A stretch of 64,000 nt of DNA from an uncultured Pelagibacteraceae bacterium (GCA_902579215.1 CACHGH010000004.1:1-64000), one strand, 5' to 3'. Positions 1-16,885 are shown, counted from the stretch's first letter. Numbers and translations are program-made. Notes: generated by a model from the letters alone, not told the origin.

Positions 1-356
1 ATGACGATATGTATAAGGGTTTTAGTGCTGGAAGTAATCCAACAGGAAAAGTAAATGAAGATGTGAAGAATTATTTATTATCAAAACATTATGATCTTTC
101 AAATTATAGATCTAAAAATTTTAACGAGTTTATTAATGGTAAAATTAAAATGGATTATGTTATTACAGTTTGTAATAATGCCAATAACGAAGTCTGTCCT
201 ATTTGGCCAAATAAAGATCAGATAATTCATTGGGATATAGAGGATCCTGCTAAATTACTTAATGAAACAAATGACTTAAATAAAAAAGACAAAATAATTG
301 AAAAAGTTTTTAACCATATTAATAAAAATATAAAGGAACTACTTAATGAAAAATAA
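1..356 (+). CDS. arsC: Arsenate reductase ArsC, LMW-phosphatase fold (5' end truncated by window edge)
   Basis: SAGSNPTGKVN and VCNNANNEVCPIWP...HWDIEDPA match ArsC/LMWPTP-type reductases; frame is open to base 1 and the catalytic N-terminus lies outside the window. Confidence 0.8.
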   Translation, partial: DDMYKGFSAGSNPTGKVNEDVKNYLLSKHYDLSNYRSKNFNEFINGKIKMDYVITVCNNANNEVCPIWPNKDQIIHWDIEDPAKLLNETNDLNKKDKIIEKVFNHINKNIKELLNEK

Positions 357-1005
357 AAATCGTTATTTTCTTGCTGAATTAATAGGAAGTTGTTTTTTAG
401 TAATGATTATTGTCGGCTCAGGTTTAATGGCTGAAAACTTAACTAATGACGTTGCTGTGATGTTAATTGCAAACACAATAGCAACAGGAGCAGGTTTATT
501 TGTCCTTATTACAGTATTTGCTGATGTATCAGGAGCTCACTTTAATCCATTTGTAAGTATCGCAATGACAATAACAGGAAAATTAAAAAAGAAACTACTA
601 CCCTACTATATCATTGCTCAACTGGTTGGTTGCTTGATTGGCGTTGGTTTAGCTAATTTCTTTTTTGAACATGAAATTTATGAATTATCTACTAAGTCAA
701 GAGATGGAATTTACATATTCACATCTGAGATAATAGCAACATTGGGGCTTATAATAATAATTTTTGGCTCCATGAAGTCAGGCAAAATTGCTGTTGCTGC
801 TAGTGTTGGTCTTTATATTACTGCTGGTTATTGGTTTACTTCCTCAACTTCATTTGCAAATCCAGCTGTAGCAATTGCTAGAACATTTACAGAGTCTTTT
901 ACTGGTATTAGTTATTTAAATACTCCTTATTATATTTTAGCAGAACTTGTGGGAATGTTAATTGCTGTATTTATTGTTAAAAAGTTATTTTTAGAGAAAA
1001 ATTGA
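346..1005 (+). CDS. MIP/aquaporin family channel (AqpS-like, ars-linked)
   Basis: Six-TM MIP protein with loop motifs HFNPF and FANPA; start overlaps arsC. Confidence 0.85.
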   Translation: MKNKNRYFLAELIGSCFLVMIIVGSGLMAENLTNDVAVMLIANTIATGAGLFVLITVFADVSGAHFNPFVSIAMTITGKLKKKLLPYYIIAQLVGCLIGVGLANFFFEHEIYELSTKSRDGIYIFTSEIIATLGLIIIIFGSMKSGKIAVAASVGLYITAGYWFTSSTSFANPAVAIARTFTESFTGISYLNTPYYILAELVGMLIAVFIVKKLFLEKN

Positions 1006-5633: not shown

Positions 5634-6158
5634 ATGTATCAATTATACGTCATGAGACACGCAAAATCTAGTTGGGATGATTTAAGTATTAATGATTTTG
5701 ATAGACCACTTAGTAAAAGAGGCAAGAAAAATGCAAAAATGATTTGTGAATTTTTTGTTAAAAAAAAATTTAAATTTGATTATGCATTAATTTCATCATC
5801 AAAAAGAACAAAAAAAACTTTTCAAATTTTGTCCAAGAAAATTGATAGGCCAAAAAAAGTTAATTTTTCAAAAGATTTATATTTAGTTGATGAGAATGCA
5901 ATTACAAAAAAAATTAAAGAAATATCCAGTGAATATAAATCAATTTTGATTATAAACCATGAACCATCAGTGAAAAATTTAGTACGAAATCTTACAAAAA
6001 ATCATAATACGAATAATTTTAAACTAATGAATTATAAATTCCCAACAGCAGCATTTGCAAAAATTGATTTTGATATTAAATCCTGGAATGAAATTGAGAA
6101 AAAAGGAGTTTTAAAAGAATTTATAAGACCCAAAGATCTTCAAGATTCTAAAGAATAA
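5634..6158 (+). CDS. SixA-like histidine phosphatase family protein
   Basis: LYVMRHAKSSW; start moved to ATG 5634 (the track's start at 5541 lies inside antisense ppk). Confidence 0.85.
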   Translation: MYQLYVMRHAKSSWDDLSINDFDRPLSKRGKKNAKMICEFFVKKKFKFDYALISSSKRTKKTFQILSKKIDRPKKVNFSKDLYLVDENAITKKIKEISSEYKSILIINHEPSVKNLVRNLTKNHNTNNFKLMNYKFPTAAFAKIDFDIKSWNEIEKKGVLKEFIRPKDLQDSKE

Positions 6159-6823
6159 CCAGCTGATCTCACTGTTCTAATTAAAGGTTTTGTATTTTGT
6201 ATGTTAATTGCTTGTCTCAATCTTCTAATATGAACATCTACTGTTCTAGACTCAACATATATATTTTCCCCCCAAACATTATTTAGAAGTTGTTCTCTTG
6301 AATAAACTCTTTTTGGATTTTTGATAAAAAAATCTAATAGTTTAAATTCAGTTGGACCTAAAGTAATTTCCTTATCTTTTCTATAAACTCTTTTTGTAAT
6401 CCGATCTATTTTTAAATCAATAAATTCTACAATGTCTGATGATGATTGAGGCTTAGATCTTCTCAATAAAGATTTAATTCTAGCATTTAATTCTTTTTGA
6501 CTAAAAGGTTTAGTTACATAATCATCTGCACCTGTATCAAATGCTTTTAATTTGTCTTCTTCCTCCCCTTTTGCAGTTAACATAATGACTGGAATATCAT
6601 TAAACTTATTATCTTTTTTTAAGTTTTTACAAATTTCAACACCAGATAATTCAGGTAACATCCAATCCATTAATATCAAATCTGGCTGTTTTGATTTTAT
6701 TTGTTTAAGAGCATCTTCTCCATTTTCTGAATGACTGACTTTATAACCTTCTTTTTCAAGATTGTACTTTAACAAACTAACAATTGATGCTTCATCTTCA
6801 GCTATAAAAACATGAGCTGACAT
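6140..6823 (-). CDS. phoB: Phosphate regulon response regulator PhoB
   Basis: Receiver domain plus OmpR-type winged helix; next to phoU-pst. Confidence 0.93.
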   Translation of the reverse strand: MSAHVFIAEDEASIVSLLKYNLEKEGYKVSHSENGEDALKQIKSKQPDLILMDWMLPELSGVEICKNLKKDNKFNDIPVIMLTAKGEEEDKLKAFDTGADDYVTKPFSQKELNARIKSLLRRSKPQSSSDIVEFIDLKIDRITKRVYRKDKEITLGPTEFKLLDFFIKNPKRVYSREQLLNNVWGENIYVESRTVDVHIRRLRQAINIQNTKPLIRTVRSAGYSLES

Positions 6824-6826
6824 AAA

Positions 6827-7534
6827 TCATTTTTCTCCAGTTACAATTGGCTCGGTGCCCTTAGGTCTGTCACCTTCTAAATATTCACCTTTAGCTAAAT
6901 AATAAATTTGTTCTGCAACATTTGTAGTATGATCGCCAATACGCTCAACGTTTTTGGTCACAAACAACAAGTGAGTTCCATCCTCTAAATTTTTTTCATT
7001 TTCTTTAAGATATTTTATAACTTCTTGCATACATAGATTTGTTAGATCATCTATTTGCTCATCACCTTCCCAAACATTTACTGCCATTGGCGCAGATCTT
7101 TCTAGATAAGCGTCTAATGTTGATTTTAATTGTTTTTGAACACCGTTAGATACTCTATTTAATGAATCTACCAAATTCTTTGGAAGATTTTCATTAAGCA
7201 AAAGTGTTCTCTTGGATATATTTTTTGCTAAATCACCTATTCTTTCTAAATCTGAAGACATTTTCAAAGCTGTTACTGTCTCTCTTAAATCAATTGCCAT
7301 AGGTTGTCTCAATGCAATTAAATTTACGACTTGTTGTTCAATCAAAGTTTCATATTTATCTATTTTTTCATCGTCTTGAATTACTGCTTCCGCAAAGTCG
7401 CTATTTCTTGTGGTAATGGCTTGAATTGCTTTACCCAAAGCTTCCTCACATGCACTTCCCATTTTAATGATATTAGCATTTAGATTTTTGAGTTCTTCTT
7501 CGTAAGATTTAACTGTATGTGGTGCTTCAGACAT
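6827..7534 (-). CDS. phoU: Phosphate signalling protein PhoU
   Basis: PhoU repeats (RIGDLAKNISKR, RIGDHTTNVAEQIYYL); pst context. Confidence 0.95.
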   Translation of the reverse strand: MSEAPHTVKSYEEELKNLNANIIKMGSACEEALGKAIQAITTRNSDFAEAVIQDDEKIDKYETLIEQQVVNLIALRQPMAIDLRETVTALKMSSDLERIGDLAKNISKRTLLLNENLPKNLVDSLNRVSNGVQKQLKSTLDAYLERSAPMAVNVWEGDEQIDDLTNLCMQEVIKYLKENEKNLEDGTHLLFVTKNVERIGDHTTNVAEQIYYLAKGEYLEGDRPKGTEPIVTGEK

Positions 7535-8289
7535 TATCCAAACCTCCCGGTTATATAGTCCTGGGTTTTTTTATTATCAGGATTCTTAAATATTTTATCA
7601 GTAGATCCATGTTCTATCAATTGTCCTAAGTGAAAAAAACCTGTATTTTGAGATACACGTGCCGCTTGAGCCATAGAATGAGTTACAATTATTATTGTGT
7701 GCTCTTTTTTTAATTCATCAATCAATTCTTCAATTTGTGCTGTTGCTATAGGATCTAATGCTGAACAAGGCTCATCCATTAATATAACTTCAGGTCTTAC
7801 AGAAATTGCTCTAGCAATACAAAGTCTTTGCTGTTGCCCTCCAGATAATCCAGTTCCAGGTTCATGCAACCTATCTTTTACCTCTTCCCATAGTGCAGCT
7901 TTTTTTAAGCTAGTTTCAACAATTTCATCCATTTCTTGTTTTGATTGAGCTATACCATGAATTGTTGGACCGTAAGATACATTTTCATATAAAGTTTTTG
8001 GGAAAGGATTAGGTTTTTGAAAAACCATACCAATTTTTTCTCTTAGTCTTACTACATCACAACCTTTATCATTGATATTAAAGTCATTAATTAAAATTTC
8101 TCCTTTAACACTGCAGATATCAATTACATCATTCATTCTATTAAGACATCTTAGGAAAGTTGATTTACCACAACCAGATGGACCAATTAATGCCGTGACT
8201 TGATTTTCCTCAATATCTAAACTTATATTAAAGAGTGCTTGTTTTTTTCCGTAAAAAACATCAACATCTTTTGCTTTAATCTTTATCAT
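7534..8289 (-). CDS. pstB: Phosphate ABC transporter ATP-binding protein PstB
   Basis: [33 protein letters not shown]; start probably ATG 8289 (MIKIKAKD). Confidence 0.95.
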
Positions 8290-8290
8290 T

Positions 8291-9583
8291 TTAACTCCAT
8301 TTTTTCTCAAACTTATGTCTTATTATTTGGGCAAATAAATTCATTATTATTAAAAAGCCAAGTAAGACCATTATACATGCTGAAACTTTTTCTACAAATC
8401 CCCTTTCAGCACTTTCAGCCCAAATATAAATTTGAACTGGTAAACTTGCAGCAGGATCCATAGGTGATCCAGGTATCGTGTTAACAAAAGCAACCATTCC
8501 AATTAAAATTAGGGGTGCAGTTTCTCCTAAAGCTTGAGCTAAACCAATTATTGTTCCTGATAACGTACCAGGCATAGAAAGAGGAACTGTATGATGCATT
8601 GTGGTTTGCATTCGACTTGCTCCCATAGCAAGTGCTGCCTCTCTTATACTTGGTGGAACCGCTTTTAAAGATGCTCTAGCAGCTATAATTATTGTTGGTA
8701 AAGTCATTAAGGACAAAGTGATACCTCCAACTAATGGGGTAGACCTTGGTAGTTGAAATATAGCTAATAAAATGCCTAACCCTAATAGACCAAAAACTAT
8801 AGATGGAACTGCTGCTAAGTTATTTATATTTACTTCAATAAAATCAGTGAATCTATTTTTAGGGGCAAATTCTTCAAGATAGATTGCTGCTAGAACCGCT
8901 ACAGGAAAAGCTATCATTAAACAAACAAGTATAGAAAAAATTGAGCCCATAAATGAACTTGCTATTCCAGCTAGTTCTGCTTCTCTTGAGTCAGCATTTG
9001 TAAAAAAGCTAATATTAAATTTACTTTCAACCTTACCATTTGCAACAAGTTGATCAAAAATTTTTAATTGATAATCGCTTACTCTTCTTTGGTCTTCAGG
9101 TAAATCTCTTGGATAATTTCCTTTAAAGACTTGGTCTAAGTCATCAGATGCAGTTAGGTAAACTTCTTTGGTTTTTCCTAATAAATTTGGATCTTTTAAT
9201 AATTCTTGTTTTATCTCTCTTTCAAAGAAATAAGAAACCATTCTTTTTAATTGATTTTGTTGATCCTCATTAGCGTTAGGGTCTAAATTCCACATTGATT
9301 GAAGTGCTATTTCGTAATAGTCCGCATCTTCGATATCTTGTTTTGTTGGATTTTCATCTAACATCATTAATTCAGCATCAAAGGTTACTGGAACAATGAG
9401 CCAAGTTTTTTGAAAAGCAGAATAGCCAGTTGAAAAAATTTTAAAAATAAAGATTGTTAAAAATAAAAGTGCCATAAAAATTGCACTTTGACCGTATAAG
9501 CGAAATCTCTGCTCAGCCTTGTATCTTTTATTTAATAATTGTTCTTTATTTTTATTCATATTTCTCTCTATATTTTTTAACAA
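8291..9583 (-). CDS. pstA: Phosphate ABC transporter permease PstA
   Basis: Permease motif [29 protein letters not shown]; gene order. Confidence 0.93.
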
Positions 9584-10937
9584 CTCTTAAGGCCACAATG
9601 TTTAAACAAAGCGTTACTAAAAATAATGACATACCTAAAGCAAAAGCAGCTTGTGTTTTTGGGTCGCCAAAAGCTTGATCACCAATTAGAATAACTACAA
9701 TTTGAGCTGTAATTGTTGAAGTAGACTCTAATGGATTTAAAGTTAAATTAGCAGCTAAACCAGAGGCCATAACAACTATCATTGTTTCACCAATAGCTCT
9801 TGAAACACCAAGTAAAATAGATCCAACTATCCCCGGCAATGCTGCAGGAAAAATAACTCTCTTGATTGTTTCTGATTTAGTTGCTCCCATAGCATAACTT
9901 CCATCTCTTAAACTTTGAGGTACACTTGTAATTACATCGTCACTTAAACTTGAAATAAATGGTATGATCATAATGCCCATTACCCCTCCTGCTGCTAAAG
10001 CACTTTCAGCTGAAACTTCAAGACCCATAGAGGTTCCTAATTCTTTTAAAAATGGGCCAACAGTTAGGGCAGCAAAAAAACCATAAACAACTGTTGGTAT
10101 ACCAGCTAAAATTTCAATTAAAGGTTTTGCGTATTGTCTAACTTTATATGATGCATATTCAGCTAAATAAATTCCACTCATTAATCCAATTGGGATAGCA
10201 ACGCACATAGCAATAAATGCAATAAAAAATGTGCCTGCAAAAATAGGGACCGCTCCAAAAGTATCAGAATACATTGACGGATCTAAAGCCTCAGAAGAAT
10301 CTCTAACAAAAGCTTTTGCTGGATACCAGTGAGTTCCAAAGACAAAATCAAATAATGGAATTACTTTAAAAAAATCTATAGTTTGAAATATAAGTGAGAA
10401 AACTATTCCAACAGTAGTTAATATTGCGGCTAATGAAGCTGTAAATAAAACTGCGTTCAAAAATTTTTCAACTGGTTCTCTTGTTCTAGAATTAGATGAA
10501 ATTCTTTTATACGCATAAGCAACAGAGGCAATGATTGCAGACAATACTATAACAACTTTTGAACTTTGAGCTATTGATCGAAGACTTAAATATTTTTCAG
10601 CTGAAGCTTCAATAAAAGGTGTAATTTCTCCAGTGAATTGACCTCGAGACAATGCTTTTGTTTTTTCGTATATTAAATTTAATTCATCATCAAGATAACC
10701 TTGATTTGAATAATCACTTAAAACTAATAGTTTTACAATTGTGGGCTCAAAAATTGCCCATAAAGAAAAAATTATAAAGGCTGGTATTGCACACCAGATC
10801 GCAAGATAATAACCATAAAATTGAGGTAATGCAGTTAATCTTTTTTTGGTAGATTGAATTGTGTATGCTTTTTTACGTCCAAAATAATAACTTGTGAAAC
10901 CTAGAAGAACAATAAATGTAAACAATATTAAGTTCAA
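9552..10937 (-). CDS. pstC: Phosphate ABC transporter permease PstC
   Basis: Permease motif DGSYAMGATKSETIKRVIFPAALPGIVG; gene order. Confidence 0.93.
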   Translation of the reverse strand: MNLILFTFIVLLGFTSYYFGRKKAYTIQSTKKRLTALPQFYGYYLAIWCAIPAFIIFSLWAIFEPTIVKLLVLSDYSNQGYLDDELNLIYEKTKALSRGQFTGEITPFIEASAEKYLSLRSIAQSSKVVIVLSAIIASVAYAYKRISSNSRTREPVEKFLNAVLFTASLAAILTTVGIVFSLIFQTIDFFKVIPLFDFVFGTHWYPAKAFVRDSSEALDPSMYSDTFGAVPIFAGTFFIAFIAMCVAIPIGLMSGIYLAEYASYKVRQYAKPLIEILAGIPTVVYGFFAALTVGPFLKELGTSMGLEVSAESALAAGGVMGIMIIPFISSLSDDVITSVPQSLRDGSYAMGATKSETIKRVIFPAALPGIVGSILLGVSRAIGETMIVVMASGLAANLTLNPLESTSTITAQIVVILIGDQAFGDPKTQAAFALGMSLFLVTLCLNIVALRVVKKYREKYE

Positions 10938-10974: not shown

Positions 10975-11005
10975 AAAAAGGGGGTCTAAAAAGACCCCCT
11001 TTTTA
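10975..11005 (-). terminator. Intercistronic terminator/attenuator between pstS and pstC
   Basis: GGGGGTCT (10980-10987), AAAA loop, AGACCCCC (10992-10999), flanked by A/T tracts. Confidence 0.85.
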
Positions 11006-11028: not shown

Positions 11029-12060
11029 TTAATTACCCATAGCAACTAGTTTGGTAGCATTAGTTCTAGTTGTTTTATACAACTTAGAGTCTAATGGCAC
11101 TAAACCAATGTCTGCTAGGTAACCACCTTTTCCAATAGCTTTCTTTGTTGTGAATTCTTTCACAAACTCATGTAAGCCTGGAATTACTCCAACGTGAGCT
11201 TTTTTCACGTAGAAGAATAAAGGTCTAGCAACAGCATAACTGTAGTCTTGAATAGACTTCAATGATGGTTGTCCACCATCAATACTTGCTGCTTGTAATT
11301 TATCTTTTGCAGCTAAGAAATAACTGAAACCAAAGAAACCAAACATATCTTTATCTTGAGTTAACTTTTGGATGATTAAACTATCATTTTCTCCAACTTC
11401 AATAGCAGCACCATCTTCTCTGTAAAGTTTTTGAGGTTTTTTGTATTTTTTATTTCCAGCTTCAAAACCAGCTTTATAAAGAGCTTTAGCTTCTTTAGTC
11501 ATACCTTTTTTCATCACTAAAGAATTCCAAGCATCTCTAGTTCCTGATGTTCCTGGTGGGATCATCACTGAAATTTTTTGTTTTGGTAAACTAGAGTCAA
11601 TTTGGTCCCAAGTTTTATAAATATTTGGAACTAATTTACCATCAACAACTGTATGAGCAGCTAGTGCTAAATACAAATGTTCTTTAGTAAAGTTTACTGG
11701 TTTTGCATCTTTGCTGTAAGCTAATGTAATACCATCGTTACCAATTACGATCTCAACGATTTCATTTACACCATTTTTCTTACATAGAGCTTTTTCTTTA
11801 TCTTTCATAGCTCTTGATGCGTTTGTAATATCTGGATGTTGTTCACCTACACCAGCACAGAATAGTTTAGCTCCACCACCAGTACCAGTAGATTCGATTA
11901 CAGGAGTTTTAAATCCTGAACCACCAAATCTTTCAGCAACAACTGTTGCATAAGGGAATACCGTAGAAGAACCAACTATCTTAATTTGATCTCTTGCTTG
12001 AGCAACAGTTGCAATTGAAAGTGCAACTAAAGAAGCAATTACTATAGTTAGTTTTTTCAT
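11029..12060 (-). CDS. pstS: Phosphate-binding protein PstS
   Basis: Signal peptide, IKIVGSSTVFPYATVVAERF, GTSGTRDAWN. Confidence 0.95.
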   Translation of the reverse strand: MKKLTIVIASLVALSIATVAQARDQIKIVGSSTVFPYATVVAERFGGSGFKTPVIESTGTGGGAKLFCAGVGEQHPDITNASRAMKDKEKALCKKNGVNEIVEIVIGNDGITLAYSKDAKPVNFTKEHLYLALAAHTVVDGKLVPNIYKTWDQIDSSLPKQKISVMIPPGTSGTRDAWNSLVMKKGMTKEAKALYKAGFEAGNKKYKKPQKLYREDGAAIEVGENDSLIIQKLTQDKDMFGFFGFSYFLAAKDKLQAASIDGGQPSLKSIQDYSYAVARPLFFYVKKAHVGVIPGLHEFVKEFTTKKAIGKGGYLADIGLVPLDSKLYKTTRTNATKLVAMGN

Positions 12061-12129
12061 TATCTTTAATCCTTTCGTTATTTATTAATTAAAAGATGTG
12101 AGACTCCTATAAATTTATTGAATCTTTAA

Positions 12130-12158
12130 TATTACAAATTTGTTACACTTTTGTTAAA
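12130..12158 (-). promoter_or_regulatory. Predicted Pho box upstream of pstS
   Basis: Minus strand TTTAACA-AAAG-TGTAACA-AATT-TGTAATA, three units in 11-nt register, ~70 nt before the pstS ATG. Confidence 0.75.
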
Positions 12159-12169
12159 AAGGTAACTTT

Positions 12170-12778
12170 TTAGTTGTAATTTTTTGATATAATTATCTGA
12201 TCAGTATCAGCTTCTAGACCACCAATACATGAAACAGGGTTTACCTGTTCACTAAGAGCGAGTTCATTGCTTGGACGTAAAGTTATTTCTAGTTTTACTA
12301 AGTTTACTAATTCTTCTCTAATTTCTTCATCATATCTCCAGCTAGGCCATGAACTTGGGGTTGAAAATATAGAGGTTAAATAACTTGTAGCCATAGTATA
12401 TCTGTAATTACTCAAATTTTCATTCCTCAATAAAAAATTTCTTACAGAATTAAAAATATTCCTACATCTAAAAGAATCTGAAAAATAATTTTTCTTCTTG
12501 AGATTTTCATTCATAGGAACAGAAACAATTAAATCAATTGAATTTTTAGAATACGAGGTAACTACGTCTGTATAAAATTCAGCTTCAGTAACTTCTAAAT
12601 GATCTTTTATAGAAGGATATGAGGTTTTTAAATCTGCTTCTAATCTAAAAATTCCAATATCAAAAACTGTAAGTTGCTGATTTCTTAGTATGGTTGTGAT
12701 ATCTTTTGAAAAAGCACTTGTTATTAAAGAGCTTAAAAAAATAACATAAATCAAAATATTTTTAAATATTTTAACCAT
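12170..12778 (-). CDS. Secreted protein of unknown function between phoR and pstS
   Basis: 202 aa with N-terminal signal peptide; same strand as phoR and pstS; no family recognised. Confidence 0.8.
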   Translation of the reverse strand: MVKIFKNILIYVIFLSSLITSAFSKDITTILRNQQLTVFDIGIFRLEADLKTSYPSIKDHLEVTEAEFYTDVVTSYSKNSIDLIVSVPMNENLKKKNYFSDSFRCRNIFNSVRNFLLRNENLSNYRYTMATSYLTSIFSTPSSWPSWRYDEEIREELVNLVKLEITLRPSNELALSEQVNPVSCIGGLEADTDQIIISKNYN

Positions 12779-12868
12779 ATATAAAATTAATTAAAAGATT
12801 AACATTAATCAAGTAAAGAAATGTTAAAAAAACCTTCTAAAATTATTATAAAATAATACTTTTTAAAT

Positions 12869-14014
12869 CTAAGTTTTCGCTGGTAAATAAATTTGGATTT
12901 CAGTTCCTTTATTCTCTTCACTTAGAATCTCATAGTGTCCACGATGTTGAGTAATTATATGTTTAACAATAGCTAATCCTAAACCAGTTCCACCAACTTT
13001 ATTACTTTGTTCAAGATCTACTCTAAAAAATCTTTCTGTAATTCTAGAAATAAATCTTTGAGGAATGCCAACACCTTCGTCTTTAACACTGATCATAAAA
13101 TTTTTTTCTAACAATTTACCATCACTAATTTCACTTGATATAAAAATAGACTTATTTTCCATTGAATACTTAATTGCATTATCTAAAAGATTAGAAAAAA
13201 CAGTTTGTAATTTTTTTTTATCTCCAATAACAATTGTTGGATTTGCGAGAGATAAATTAATGTTTAATTTCTTTTTTTTTAAAATAATCTCAAAATTACT
13301 GATGATTGTTTTGAAAAGATCATTTATATCAACTAAAGTGCTTGGCCTTATATGTTCTTCTAATTCAATTCTTGTGAGTATTAAAAGATCATTAACTAAA
13401 TTTTCCATTCTATTTGATTGATCAGTGATTATTTTCATAAATTTTTTTTTAGCCTTTTCATCATCAGACGCTGGACCTTCAATAGTTTCTAAAGATCCTT
13501 TGATTGCCATTAAAGGTGTTCTTAATTCGTGACTTACATTGGCTACAAAATCAGTTTTAAATTTTTGTGCTTTTGTAATTTCAGTAAAATCTTTAAAAAA
13601 TAACACAACAGAATCTGGTTCAGTAAATAAATGAGTTGGGCCAGGGATGATATAAATCTTATAAAATTGATATGATGGCAAGTCTATTTCAACATCAATA
13701 TTTTTTGTTTTATTTTCAATTATAGCTTTTTCAATATTTTCTATTAATTCTGGTTTTCGAATTACAGAAGAAATGTTTTTATCAATTAAACTACTTCCAA
13801 ATCTTTTTAATGCACTTGGATTAGCATATTTAATTATATTAAATTTATTTAATGCAAAAAACTGATCCTCAAGCTCATCAATAATTACTCTTTTAGTTTT
13901 TTCTTCTCTTTTATTAATTATTGTGGCTGTATTTATTGGTTTGTTTTTTTTTTGATTAAGTAAATATAGAAGATAAATTATAACAACTATAAGTAGAATG
14001 ACGAAATATTCCAT
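12869..14014 (-). CDS. phoR: Phosphate regulon sensor histidine kinase PhoR
   Basis: FVANVSHELRTPLMAIKGSLE H-box, GTGLGLAIVKHI G-box, N-terminal TM and PAS-like region. Confidence 0.9.
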   Translation of the reverse strand: MEYFVILLIVVIIYLLYLLNQKKNKPINTATIINKREEKTKRVIIDELEDQFFALNKFNIIKYANPSALKRFGSSLIDKNISSVIRKPELIENIEKAIIENKTKNIDVEIDLPSYQFYKIYIIPGPTHLFTEPDSVVLFFKDFTEITKAQKFKTDFVANVSHELRTPLMAIKGSLETIEGPASDDEKAKKKFMKIITDQSNRMENLVNDLLILTRIELEEHIRPSTLVDINDLFKTIISNFEIILKKKKLNINLSLANPTIVIGDKKKLQTVFSNLLDNAIKYSMENKSIFISSEISDGKLLEKNFMISVKDEGVGIPQRFISRITERFFRVDLEQSNKVGGTGLGLAIVKHIITQHRGHYEILSEENKGTEIQIYLPAKT

Positions 14015-14078
14015 AAATTTAGATATGTTAATTTTGCATCATTAAACTTTTTAATGCAAACAAATTAAGAAAAATTAA

Positions 14079-15086
14079 CTAATGATTTGGTGAAATATTA
14101 TTAAAAAATATTTTTGCTGTTTCTTCCCAAGTGAATTTCTTTGCAAATTCAAGACAATCATTTCTGTCAACTTTTAAAGCTTTATGGGCTGAAACTTTAA
14201 GATCATTATCTAAACAATTTATTTTGGATCCTTCAAATATATCTTTAGGACCTGGAACAGGATACGCAGCAACAGGAGTACCACAATTTAAAGCCTCAGT
14301 AACTACAATTCCAAATGTATCTGTTTTACTAGGGAATACAAAAACATCAGAAGATGCAAAATATGATGCAAGTGCACCATTTGTTTTTTCTCCTAAAAAA
14401 ATATCTTTAGGGAATTCTTCTTTTAATTTTTTTAAATCGGGTCCTTTTCCTATTATTATTTTTGTACCTTCTAAATCACATTCTAAGAAAGCTCTTATGT
14501 TTTTTTCAACTGCAACTCTTCCAACATAAATCCAAATTGGTCTTTTGTGATGTAATTCAATTTTTTTAGGTTTCTTAAAGGCTCCGTGATTTCCCCCTCT
14601 GGTCCAAGTAATCATTTTATTATTATCTATACCTATATCGATTAATTCTTTTCTCATGGATTCTGTTGTTACTAAAATTCTCTCGGCCTTGTTATGAAAA
14701 TTTGCTAAGAATTTTTCAGCCCATTTTGCTGGTATAATAGGAAAGTAAAGTTTTAGATATTTATCAAATCTTGTATGGAAACTCGTAGTAAACTTTAGAT
14801 TATTTTTTAAACAATATCTTCTTGCCATCGTCCCTATAGGACCTTCGGTAGCAATATGTATTGCATCAGGTTTTATTTTCTTTATTAAACTACCAACTCT
14901 TGGCCATACATTTATAGACAACCTAATTTCGTTATATTTCGGCATCGGAAAAGTTAAAAATAAGTCTGGTGTAATATATTCTATAATATGACCTTGTTCT
15001 TTTAATACATTGCCTGTTTCATGTAAGGTTCTTACGACACCATTTACTTGTGGAAAATATGCATCTGTCGCTATTAAAATTTTCAT
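14079..15086 (-). CDS. GT4 glycosyltransferase, Agt-like (diacylglycerol glycosyltransferase candidate)
   Basis: DAYFPQVNGVVRTL..., FVFPSKTDTFGIVVTEAL; adjacent to PlcP-like gene. Confidence 0.8.
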   Translation of the reverse strand: MKILIATDAYFPQVNGVVRTLHETGNVLKEQGHIIEYITPDLFLTFPMPKYNEIRLSINVWPRVGSLIKKIKPDAIHIATEGPIGTMARRYCLKNNLKFTTSFHTRFDKYLKLYFPIIPAKWAEKFLANFHNKAERILVTTESMRKELIDIGIDNNKMITWTRGGNHGAFKKPKKIELHHKRPIWIYVGRVAVEKNIRAFLECDLEGTKIIIGKGPDLKKLKEEFPKDIFLGEKTNGALASYFASSDVFVFPSKTDTFGIVVTEALNCGTPVAAYPVPGPKDIFEGSKINCLDNDLKVSAHKALKVDRNDCLEFAKKFTWEETAKIFFNNISPNH

Positions 15087-15089
15087 TAA

Positions 15090-15902
15090 CTATGAAGCTT
15101 TTTTTAAGTCTTCAGTTTTAATTGGTTTAATTATTTCTTTAGCGTCTAAATATTGTTCTCTTATTTTGTCCCAATATAATATTTCAAAACTACCATCATA
15201 ATTTTCGGCTAATGCAGTGCAGGATTCAACCCAGTCTCCACAATTTAAATAATTGACCCCATTAAAATCTCTATCTTCAGCATGATGGATGTGGCCACAA
15301 ATAATTCCATCAAATTTTTTTCTTTTTGCATAATCTGAGACTGTTTTTTCATATTCACCAATATATTTGACTGCGTTTTTGACTTTATACTTTAAAAATT
15401 TTGCAAGAGACCAATATTCTTTTCCTCGCAACCTTCTAAAAAAGTTAATTATTACATTTAATTGTAACAATAAATTATAGGCTATTGATCCAAGTTTAGA
15501 TAACCATTTAGCATGTTTCATAACACCATCCCAAGCATCACCATGAACAACGACATATTTTTTTCCAGAATTTGTTTCATGAATAACTCTATTAACCATT
15601 TGGATGTCACCAAAATGCATTGGAATAAATTTTCTTAACATTTCGTCATGATTACCCATTATGTAGAAAACTTTAGTACCATGCCTTGCTTTTCTTAAAA
15701 TTTTTTGAATTACATCATTATGTTCTTGAGGCCAAAAAAAACTTTTTTGCATTTCCCAAATATCTATAATATCTCCTACAAGATAAAGATTTTCAGATCT
15801 TGAGTTTTTAAAAAACTCTAAAAGTTTATTTGCCTGACATCCCTTGGTACCTAAATGCACGTCAGAAATAAATATACTTTTGTATTTAAGTATATTAGGC
15901 AT
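15090..15902 (-). CDS. plcP: Metallophosphoesterase, LpxH/PlcP family (PlcP-like phospholipase candidate)
   Basis: ISDVHLGTKGCQ, GDIIDIWEMQ, MGNHDEMLRK, CGHIHHAEDR; a Pho box lies upstream; lpxI is elsewhere in the window. Confidence 0.75.
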   Translation of the reverse strand: MPNILKYKSIFISDVHLGTKGCQANKLLEFFKNSRSENLYLVGDIIDIWEMQKSFFWPQEHNDVIQKILRKARHGTKVFYIMGNHDEMLRKFIPMHFGDIQMVNRVIHETNSGKKYVVVHGDAWDGVMKHAKWLSKLGSIAYNLLLQLNVIINFFRRLRGKEYWSLAKFLKYKVKNAVKYIGEYEKTVSDYAKRKKFDGIICGHIHHAEDRDFNGVNYLNCGDWVESCTALAENYDGSFEILYWDKIREQYLDAKEIIKPIKTEDLKKAS

Positions 15903-15916
15903 TTAAAAAACTTTTT

Positions 15917-15934
15917 TTTAACACAACTGTAACA
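15917..15934 (+). promoter_or_regulatory. Predicted Pho box for the DAG-kinase-like gene
   Basis: TTTAACA-CAAC-TGTAACA, ~67 nt before ATG 16001. Confidence 0.65.
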
Positions 15935-15963
15935 CGAATCATGTAATTCTTATTTCATTTTAA

Positions 15964-15981
15964 TGTTACAAATTTGTTAAA
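15964..15981 (-). promoter_or_regulatory. Predicted Pho box for plcP-agt
   Basis: Minus strand TTTAACA-AATT-TGTAACA, ~62 nt before the plcP ATG; extended similarity to the pstS site. Confidence 0.7.
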
Positions 15982-16000
15982 AATTTTTTAAGGATTAATT

Positions 16001-16885
16001 ATGTTGTATTGTTTAATTTACAATTTGAACTCTTCTGCTGGAAGAAAATCAAAGTTCATAAATAAAGTTTTATCTAAATTAAAAAAAAACAATTCTGTAG
16101 ACTACTTTGAGACCAATACAATAAGTCAAGCTAAGAAAATTTTTAAAGATTTTAATCAAAAAAATTATGATCGACTAATAATAGCTGGTGGTGATGGTTC
16201 AGTTTCTTTTGCAATTAATGAATTAATTAAAAATAATTTTAATTTTAAAGACGATTTTGCCATAGGTTATATTCCTGCTGGCACTGCAAATTTGCTTCAA
16301 GCTGAATTATCAATGAATAAAAAAGTTGACGATATAGTCAATGTATTGATTTCTAACAATTATAAATCCTCTAATCTTGTAAAAATTAACGAGAATTATT
16401 TCTTTTTAATGGCTGGTATAGGGTGGGATGCAAAAATTGTTCATTCAATTAATTCAAAAATTAAAAAAATTCTTGGTAAAATTATTTTCGGCATTAAAGG
16501 TTTTCAATATTTCTTATTTATGAATAATAAAAAATTAAATGTAACTTTTGATGGGCAATTTTATCAAGCAGATTGGATATTATCTTCAAATACCAAATAT
16601 TACGCTGGACATCATAAAATAAATAAAACAAATATTTTTGAAGATAAATTAGTCACCTATATTTTTAAAGATTTGACTAGGGTCAGTTTATTATATTCTA
16701 TATTCTTAATAATTCTTAATGGTGATTTAAGTAAAAACAAAAATGTTATTACTACTTATTCAAAAAACATCACCATTGATGGAAATGATTTGATACCTGT
16801 TCAAATTGATGGAGATAATTTTGGTTCATATAAAAAAATTCATTTAAATCAATCAAATAAAAAAGTGAATTTTCTTATAAAATAA
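16001..16885 (+). CDS. Diacylglycerol/lipid kinase family protein (DagK/YegS-like)
   Basis: IIAGGDGSVSFAINELI, GYIPAGTANLLQAEL. Confidence 0.85.
   Translation: MLYCLIYNLNSSAGRKSKFINKVLSKLKKNNSVDYFETNTISQAKKIFKDFNQKNYDRLIIAGGDGSVSFAINELIKNNFNFKDDFAIGYIPAGTANLLQAELSMNKKVDDIVNVLISNNYKSSNLVKINENYFFLMAGIGWDAKIVHSINSKIKKILGKIIFGIKGFQYFLFMNNKKLNVTFDGQFYQADWILSSNTKYYAGHHKINKTNIFEDKLVTYIFKDLTRVSLLYSIFLIILNGDLSKNKNVITTYSKNITIDGNDLIPVQIDGDNFGSYKKIHLNQSNKKVNFLIK

Follow-up and report, generated by a model that had tools for sequence, protein, structure and literature searches.

Putative Pho boxes link pstS with lipid-remodelling genes in a SAR11 genome

Gene content of the pst and plcP regions

The window analysed here, a stretch of 64,000 nucleotides, is part of contig C4 (CACHGH010000004.1:1-64000) of an uncultured SAR11 bacterium (Pelagibacteraceae; GCA_902579215.1), the genome of which comprises 1,010,242 bp and is about 83% complete. 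The minus strand of the window contains a pst region with the gene order pstSCAB-phoU-phoB. The first gene, pstS (11029..12060), encodes a phosphate-binding protein (PF12849) for which TIGR02136 is the best NCBIfam match, with a score under the cut-off, and which is 99-100% identical to PstS of named Pelagibacteraceae (SAR11) single-cell genomes. It is followed by the open reading frames of pstC, pstA, pstB and phoU (6827..10937), the first three named from gene order and sequence and the fourth scoring above the cut-off of TIGR02135. The final gene, phoB (6140..6823), encodes the presumed regulator and matches TIGR02154 with 329.9 bits (cut-off 296.2). In E. coli PhoB, the base contacts are made by T194, V197, R201 and R219 (PMC3973317). 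All four residues are kept in the PhoB of the window according to an alignment with 1gxp and the SAR11 relatives, in which the residue numbering was assigned within this analysis, and D192 of the E. coli transactivation loop corresponds to a serine or threonine. The gap between pstS and pstC contains a strong GC hairpin that is flanked on either side by T-runs (AAAAAGGGGGTCTAAAAAGACCCCCTTTTT, 10975-11004), which is likely to be an attenuator that holds the expression of pstS above that of pstCAB.

A second group of genes on the minus strand has the order plcP-agt-phoR-orf202. The product of plcP (15090..15902) is a metallophosphoesterase (PF00149) that scores well under the LpxH cut-offs, and the gene is directly followed by an agt-like glycosyltransferase gene (14079..15086; PF13439, PF00534), which is the arrangement of the PlcP-Agt cluster. 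The phoR-like histidine kinase gene (12869..14014; PF00512, PF02518) has its best matches to the PnpS and PhoR models, both under cut-off. Located between phoR and pstS, orf202 (12170..12778) codes for a presumably secreted protein of 202 amino acids that has homologues at the same location in many SAR11 genomes. It matched no family in Pfam or NCBIfam, and a fold search with a usable model (pLDDT 80) gave no PDB match with E <0.1. Divergent from plcP, on the plus strand, dagK (16001..16885) encodes a YegS/DAG-kinase-like lipid kinase (PF00781) with a GGDG motif, for which TIGR00147 and PRK13337 are the best matches, under cut-off. In marine bacteria, PlcP and Agt convert phospholipids to glycolipids, and Sebastian et al. 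(PMC4796936) report phospholipase C activity for the PlcP of MED193 and glycosyltransferase activity for the Agt of SAR11 strain HTCC7211, where plcP also directly precedes agt. The same two activities are predicted for the PlcP and Agt of the window.

Tandem direct repeats in three promoters

The promoters of pstS, plcP and dagK share the motif TTTAACA-N4-TGTAACA. The pstS site (12130..12158, minus strand) consists of three half-sites, TTTAACA-AAAG-TGTAACA-AATT-TGTAATA, of which the third (12136-12130) is in 11-nt phase with the 18-nt box formed by the other two (12158-12141). The plcP site (15964..15981, minus strand) reads TTTAACA-AATT-TGTAACA, and the dagK site (15917..15934, plus strand), upstream of the DAG-kinase-like gene, reads TTTAACA-CAAC-TGTAACA. 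All three are built from tandem 7-nt direct repeats with 4-nt spacers, that is, from 11-nt units, and the 18-nt box is placed 80 nt before the start codon of pstS, 61 nt before that of plcP and 66 nt before that of dagK. The sequence-only reading of this DNA had reported the three sites, their 11-nt unit spacing and a distance of roughly 60-80 nt to the start codon, and its positions and spacing were exact.

These are also the only exact copies of the motif in the 1,010,242 bp searched, from which about 17% of the host genome is missing. Under a first-order Markov model of this genome, 0.05 copies would be expected in the whole genome and 0.003 in a 64-kb window, compared to the three found. 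To score degenerate sites, we built a half-site matrix exclusively from the promoters of pstS and plcP in other SAR11 clades, with the closest relatives excluded, and scanned 1.003 Mb of the host genome with it. The four best matches, at 18.9-20.3 bits, were all located in the pstS (18.9-20.3 bits), plcP (20.3 bits) or dagK (20.3 bits) promoter, and the runner-up in the 1.003 Mb, at 15.3 bits, was intragenic. The mirrored matrix, used as a control in the same scan, gave a single match of at least 17 bits. The gap in score between the three promoters and the rest implies that the motif marks exactly three promoters in the visible genome. A chance origin in AT-rich DNA is ruled out by the excess over expectation together with the specificity of the matrix. 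One further site in the host genome with a single mismatch, at C2:103954, lies inside rpoB and is a coding coincidence.

The repeats could alternatively be mere -35 elements of sigma-70 promoters, given that TTAACA resembles TTGACA, in which case the three genes would share strong promoters and no regulator. At pstS, TTAACA and TAATAT are indeed found 17 nt apart and match the consensus at 9 of 12 positions. However, such sigma-70-like matches are no commoner than in shuffled sequences (18 vs 25.9), the first half-site is followed by two conserved repeats of it in 11-nt phase, and the motif marks three promoters rather than the many in the genome, all of which makes this explanation very improbable. 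A search for a -10 position shared across the promoters established none, and neither -10 elements nor start sites could be assigned. A search of the window against Rfam for leader RNA elements returned only tRNAs. In most SAR11 clades, GANTC sites, of the type recognized by CcrM, recur between the box and the start codon of pstS, plcP and dagK (12061-12169 and 15903-16000 in the window). Since their intergenic density of 2.4 per kb is only 1.5 times the 1.6 per kb expected from the Markov model, their presence in these promoters is weakly special.

Conservation and association with PhoB

PstS was identified in 61 and PlcP in 37 of the 121 genomes of the genus. Tandem half-sites in 11-nt phase were present upstream of pstS in every distinct SAR11 promoter examined, down to a protein identity of 63%, including all 13 distinct promoter types. 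In an alignment of 54 pstS promoters, the identity of the half-sites averaged 0.87-0.92, as compared to 0.68 in other upstream DNA. Upstream of plcP, the tandem half-sites are kept down to 59% protein identity and are weaker in some clades.

Scans of relatives with the motif alone led to the same genes. The exact 18-mer occurs 72 times in 147 genomes of the family, compared to 8 times for the backward control, and 29 of 30 loci examined from other genomes precede plcP, pstS or an arsC-aquaporin-phoR operon. The remaining locus (L056) lies inside rpoB and is a coding coincidence. Exact matches at L156, within a pirin-like gene, and at L154, upstream of small unknown open reading frames, were excluded from the support. 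A degenerate pattern of three half-sites was found 73 times in 115 genomes of the genus, with 9 occurrences in the control, and all 30 loci examined were placed before phosphorus-related genes (28 pstS, one phnX and one arsC-like/aquaporin pair). Both in the host and in its relatives, the density of the motif thus exceeds that of random or control sequence. Furthermore, the motif is present in 23 of 35 PhoB-positive genomes and in 1 of 13 PhoB-negative genomes (p=7e-4, a value that ignores relatedness). The statistics given here are inflated by the presence of related sequences.

Taken together, these results suggest, with a probability of about 0.9, that the three sites are PhoB binding sites, i.e. 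Pho boxes of a SAR11 Pho regulon. Good support for the proposal that such boxes connect pstS and the lipid-remodelling genes comes from their conservation, specificity and gene content, from the intact set of DNA-contact residues in PhoB and from the co-occurrence of motif and PhoB. It might be argued that the repeats are instead read by another response regulator of the OmpR/PhoB type, as these often bind tandem repeats and as the host genome encodes others, for example on contigs C13 and C6, with 31-34% identity to PhoB. We consider this unlikely because the targets are exclusively phosphorus genes, the motif goes with PhoB, and PhoB is itself encoded within a target operon and has kept its DNA contacts.

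With PhoB as the regulator, PhoR would phosphorylate PhoB when phosphate is scarce, and PhoB dimers would bind the 11-nt direct repeats head-to-tail and recruit RNA polymerase. This would activate pstSCAB-phoU-phoB and plcP-agt-phoR-orf202, each presumably transcribed as an operon, and in the host clade also the divergent dagK, so that a single regulator may switch on both high-affinity phosphate uptake and the exchange of phospholipids for glycolipids. The two main target operons include phoB and phoR themselves, and for this reason the loop should amplify itself by positive feedback. The SAR11 bacteria are among the most abundant cell groups in the ocean and have few regulators. A box with near-zero background could be used to predict phosphate-starvation genes in SAR11 genomes and metagenomes, including those for lipid renovation, phosphonate use and arsenate handling.

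Two loci outside the pst and plcP operons deserve mention. In several SAR11 genomes, a three-half-site box is found together with phnX, which encodes a phosphonoacetaldehyde hydrolase (phosphonatase; TIGR01422, 277.5 bits, cut-off 220); at L380:1501-1529 (minus strand) the box is placed 111 nt before the gene. The window itself starts with an arsC-like/aquaporin pair (9-1005, plus strand), for which any box would fall past the end of the contig. In relatives (L051, L055, L153 and L392), a Pho box precedes this pair, which suggests that it is tied to phosphate-linked arsenate handling.

The plcP-dagK intergenic region

The box upstream of dagK has a narrower distribution. While conservation upstream of orthologues, which the sequence-only reading had proposed as a check, extends across the family for pstS and plcP, the dagK box is confined to the near clade. 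It occurs in relatives with at least about 73% dagK identity and is absent before more distant dagK genes of the family, although dagK stays divergent there. Within the near clade, its spacer and second half-site show almost no variation, and one group of near relatives has the form TGTAACA-CAAC-TGTAACT. Box and flank differ little in conservation here, since in the clade this short gap is well conserved over its whole length. The plcP and dagK boxes face each other with their inner edges 29 bp apart, which implies that both start regions share one stretch of DNA. Competition between the two promoters for polymerase, or their mutual exclusion, is therefore probable.

This face-to-face placement and the lack of a dagK box in much of the family raise the possibility that only the pstS and plcP boxes activate in the manner outlined above, and that the box facing dagK is either an auxiliary PhoB site for plcP or a site at which dagK is repressed. 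A DAG kinase would moreover work against the synthesis of glycolipids from diacylglycerol. Yet the orientation of the dagK box and its 66-nt distance fit those of the other boxes, and neither the spacer nor the second half-site varies much within the clade. We therefore regard an auxiliary or repressing role as doubtful, if less so than a different regulator, and retain activation of dagK by PhoB as the preferred reading for the host clade.

Comparison with other Pho boxes

The Pho box of E. coli is a tandem of CTGTCAT in two 11-nt units (review PMC4415409). The SAR11 sites resemble it in having 7-nt direct repeats with 4-nt spacers, in their location before pst and in being associated with a PhoB that has the same tested base-contact residues. 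They differ in that position 4 is A for C and position 6 often C for T, and in the three half-sites at pstS. The SAR11 half-site T[G/T]TAA[C/T]A does not match the enteric CTGTCAT, but since the consensus of the Pho box varies between species (PMC4415409), such a match is no required feature.

The pstS promoters of other Alphaproteobacteria contain the same 11-nt tandem at the same position, with half-sites of the form TGT[C/A]A[T/C]A that mix TGTCATA, TGTAATA, TGTCACA and TGTAACA. Half-sites were picked irrespective of the bases at positions 4 and 6, using 39 upstream regions from outside SAR11, and the ratio of A to C at position 4 was 37:2 in SAR11 compared to 30:35 in the other Alphaproteobacteria. 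Outside SAR11, the more AT-rich the upstream region is, the higher is the fraction of A at position 4 (rho -0.71, p=3e-4, n=21 promoters), and base composition explains much of the shift; p-values overstate independence in this comparison as the SAR11 sequences are related to each other. Judged from these promoters, the SAR11 half-site is the extreme of a trend in AT content and no discrete, lineage-specific invention. The suggestion that the variant is lineage-specific is therefore only partly upheld: it differs from CTGTCAT and lies at an extreme in SAR11, but TGTAACA and TGTAATA occur in the same phase in several other alphaproteobacterial promoters. The three sites would represent ordinary Pho regulation in an AT-rich dialect, unusually specific and apparently restricted to very few promoters, and they indicate that a binding site can shift with base composition without any change in the tested contact residues of its regulator.

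Direct repeats with a TTAACA-like core are also known from the PhoP box of Bacillus subtilis. This box and the SAR11 sites are alike in core and 11-nt period, but the regulators differ in lineage; as the SAR11 regulator is identified as PhoB by TIGR02154, the likeness is probably convergent.

The genes downstream of the plcP box resemble the type 2 plcP-agt cluster of Sebastian et al., in which plcP lies beside agt, and Pho boxes were predicted in marine plcP clusters as early as 2015 (PMC4796936). The phosphate islands of HIMB59 combine pst, phoBR and polyphosphate genes with a diacylglycerol kinase gene and a gene annotated as LpxH (PMC10734472). The available portions of these two papers contain no sequence of a SAR11 box, and the literature searched yielded no SAR11 Pho-box sequence either. 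What the present analysis adds is a definition of the boxes, of how specific they are across the genome and of the link between phoR and plcP.

A conserved dyad beside the pstS box

A side finding that is new to this analysis is a dyad, CAACTAAAAAGTT (12164..12176, minus strand), which adjoins the pstS box 5-6 nt upstream of the half-sites. Its SAR11 form is CAACTA[A/T]AAAGTT, with a mean identity of 98.6% across 54 SAR11 pstS promoters, and it is thus more conserved than the boxes themselves. In the host clade, the dyad overlaps the stop codon of orf202. It is also present in genomes where phoR, another gene or a divergent dagK is located upstream of pstS, and since it is kept whatever the gene upstream, coding constraint does not explain its conservation. 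No copy of the dyad was seen in the promoter of plcP or dagK, and the 13-mer has one further copy in the host genome, inside a coding region. We consider it a candidate operator of a second regulator. It is conceivable, if rather tentative, that pstS is a two-input switch, where the Pho box is read together with a dyad recognized by this second regulator, and that the dyad-less lipid-remodelling operon answers to PhoB alone. If so, phosphate uptake in these bacteria would also answer to another signal.
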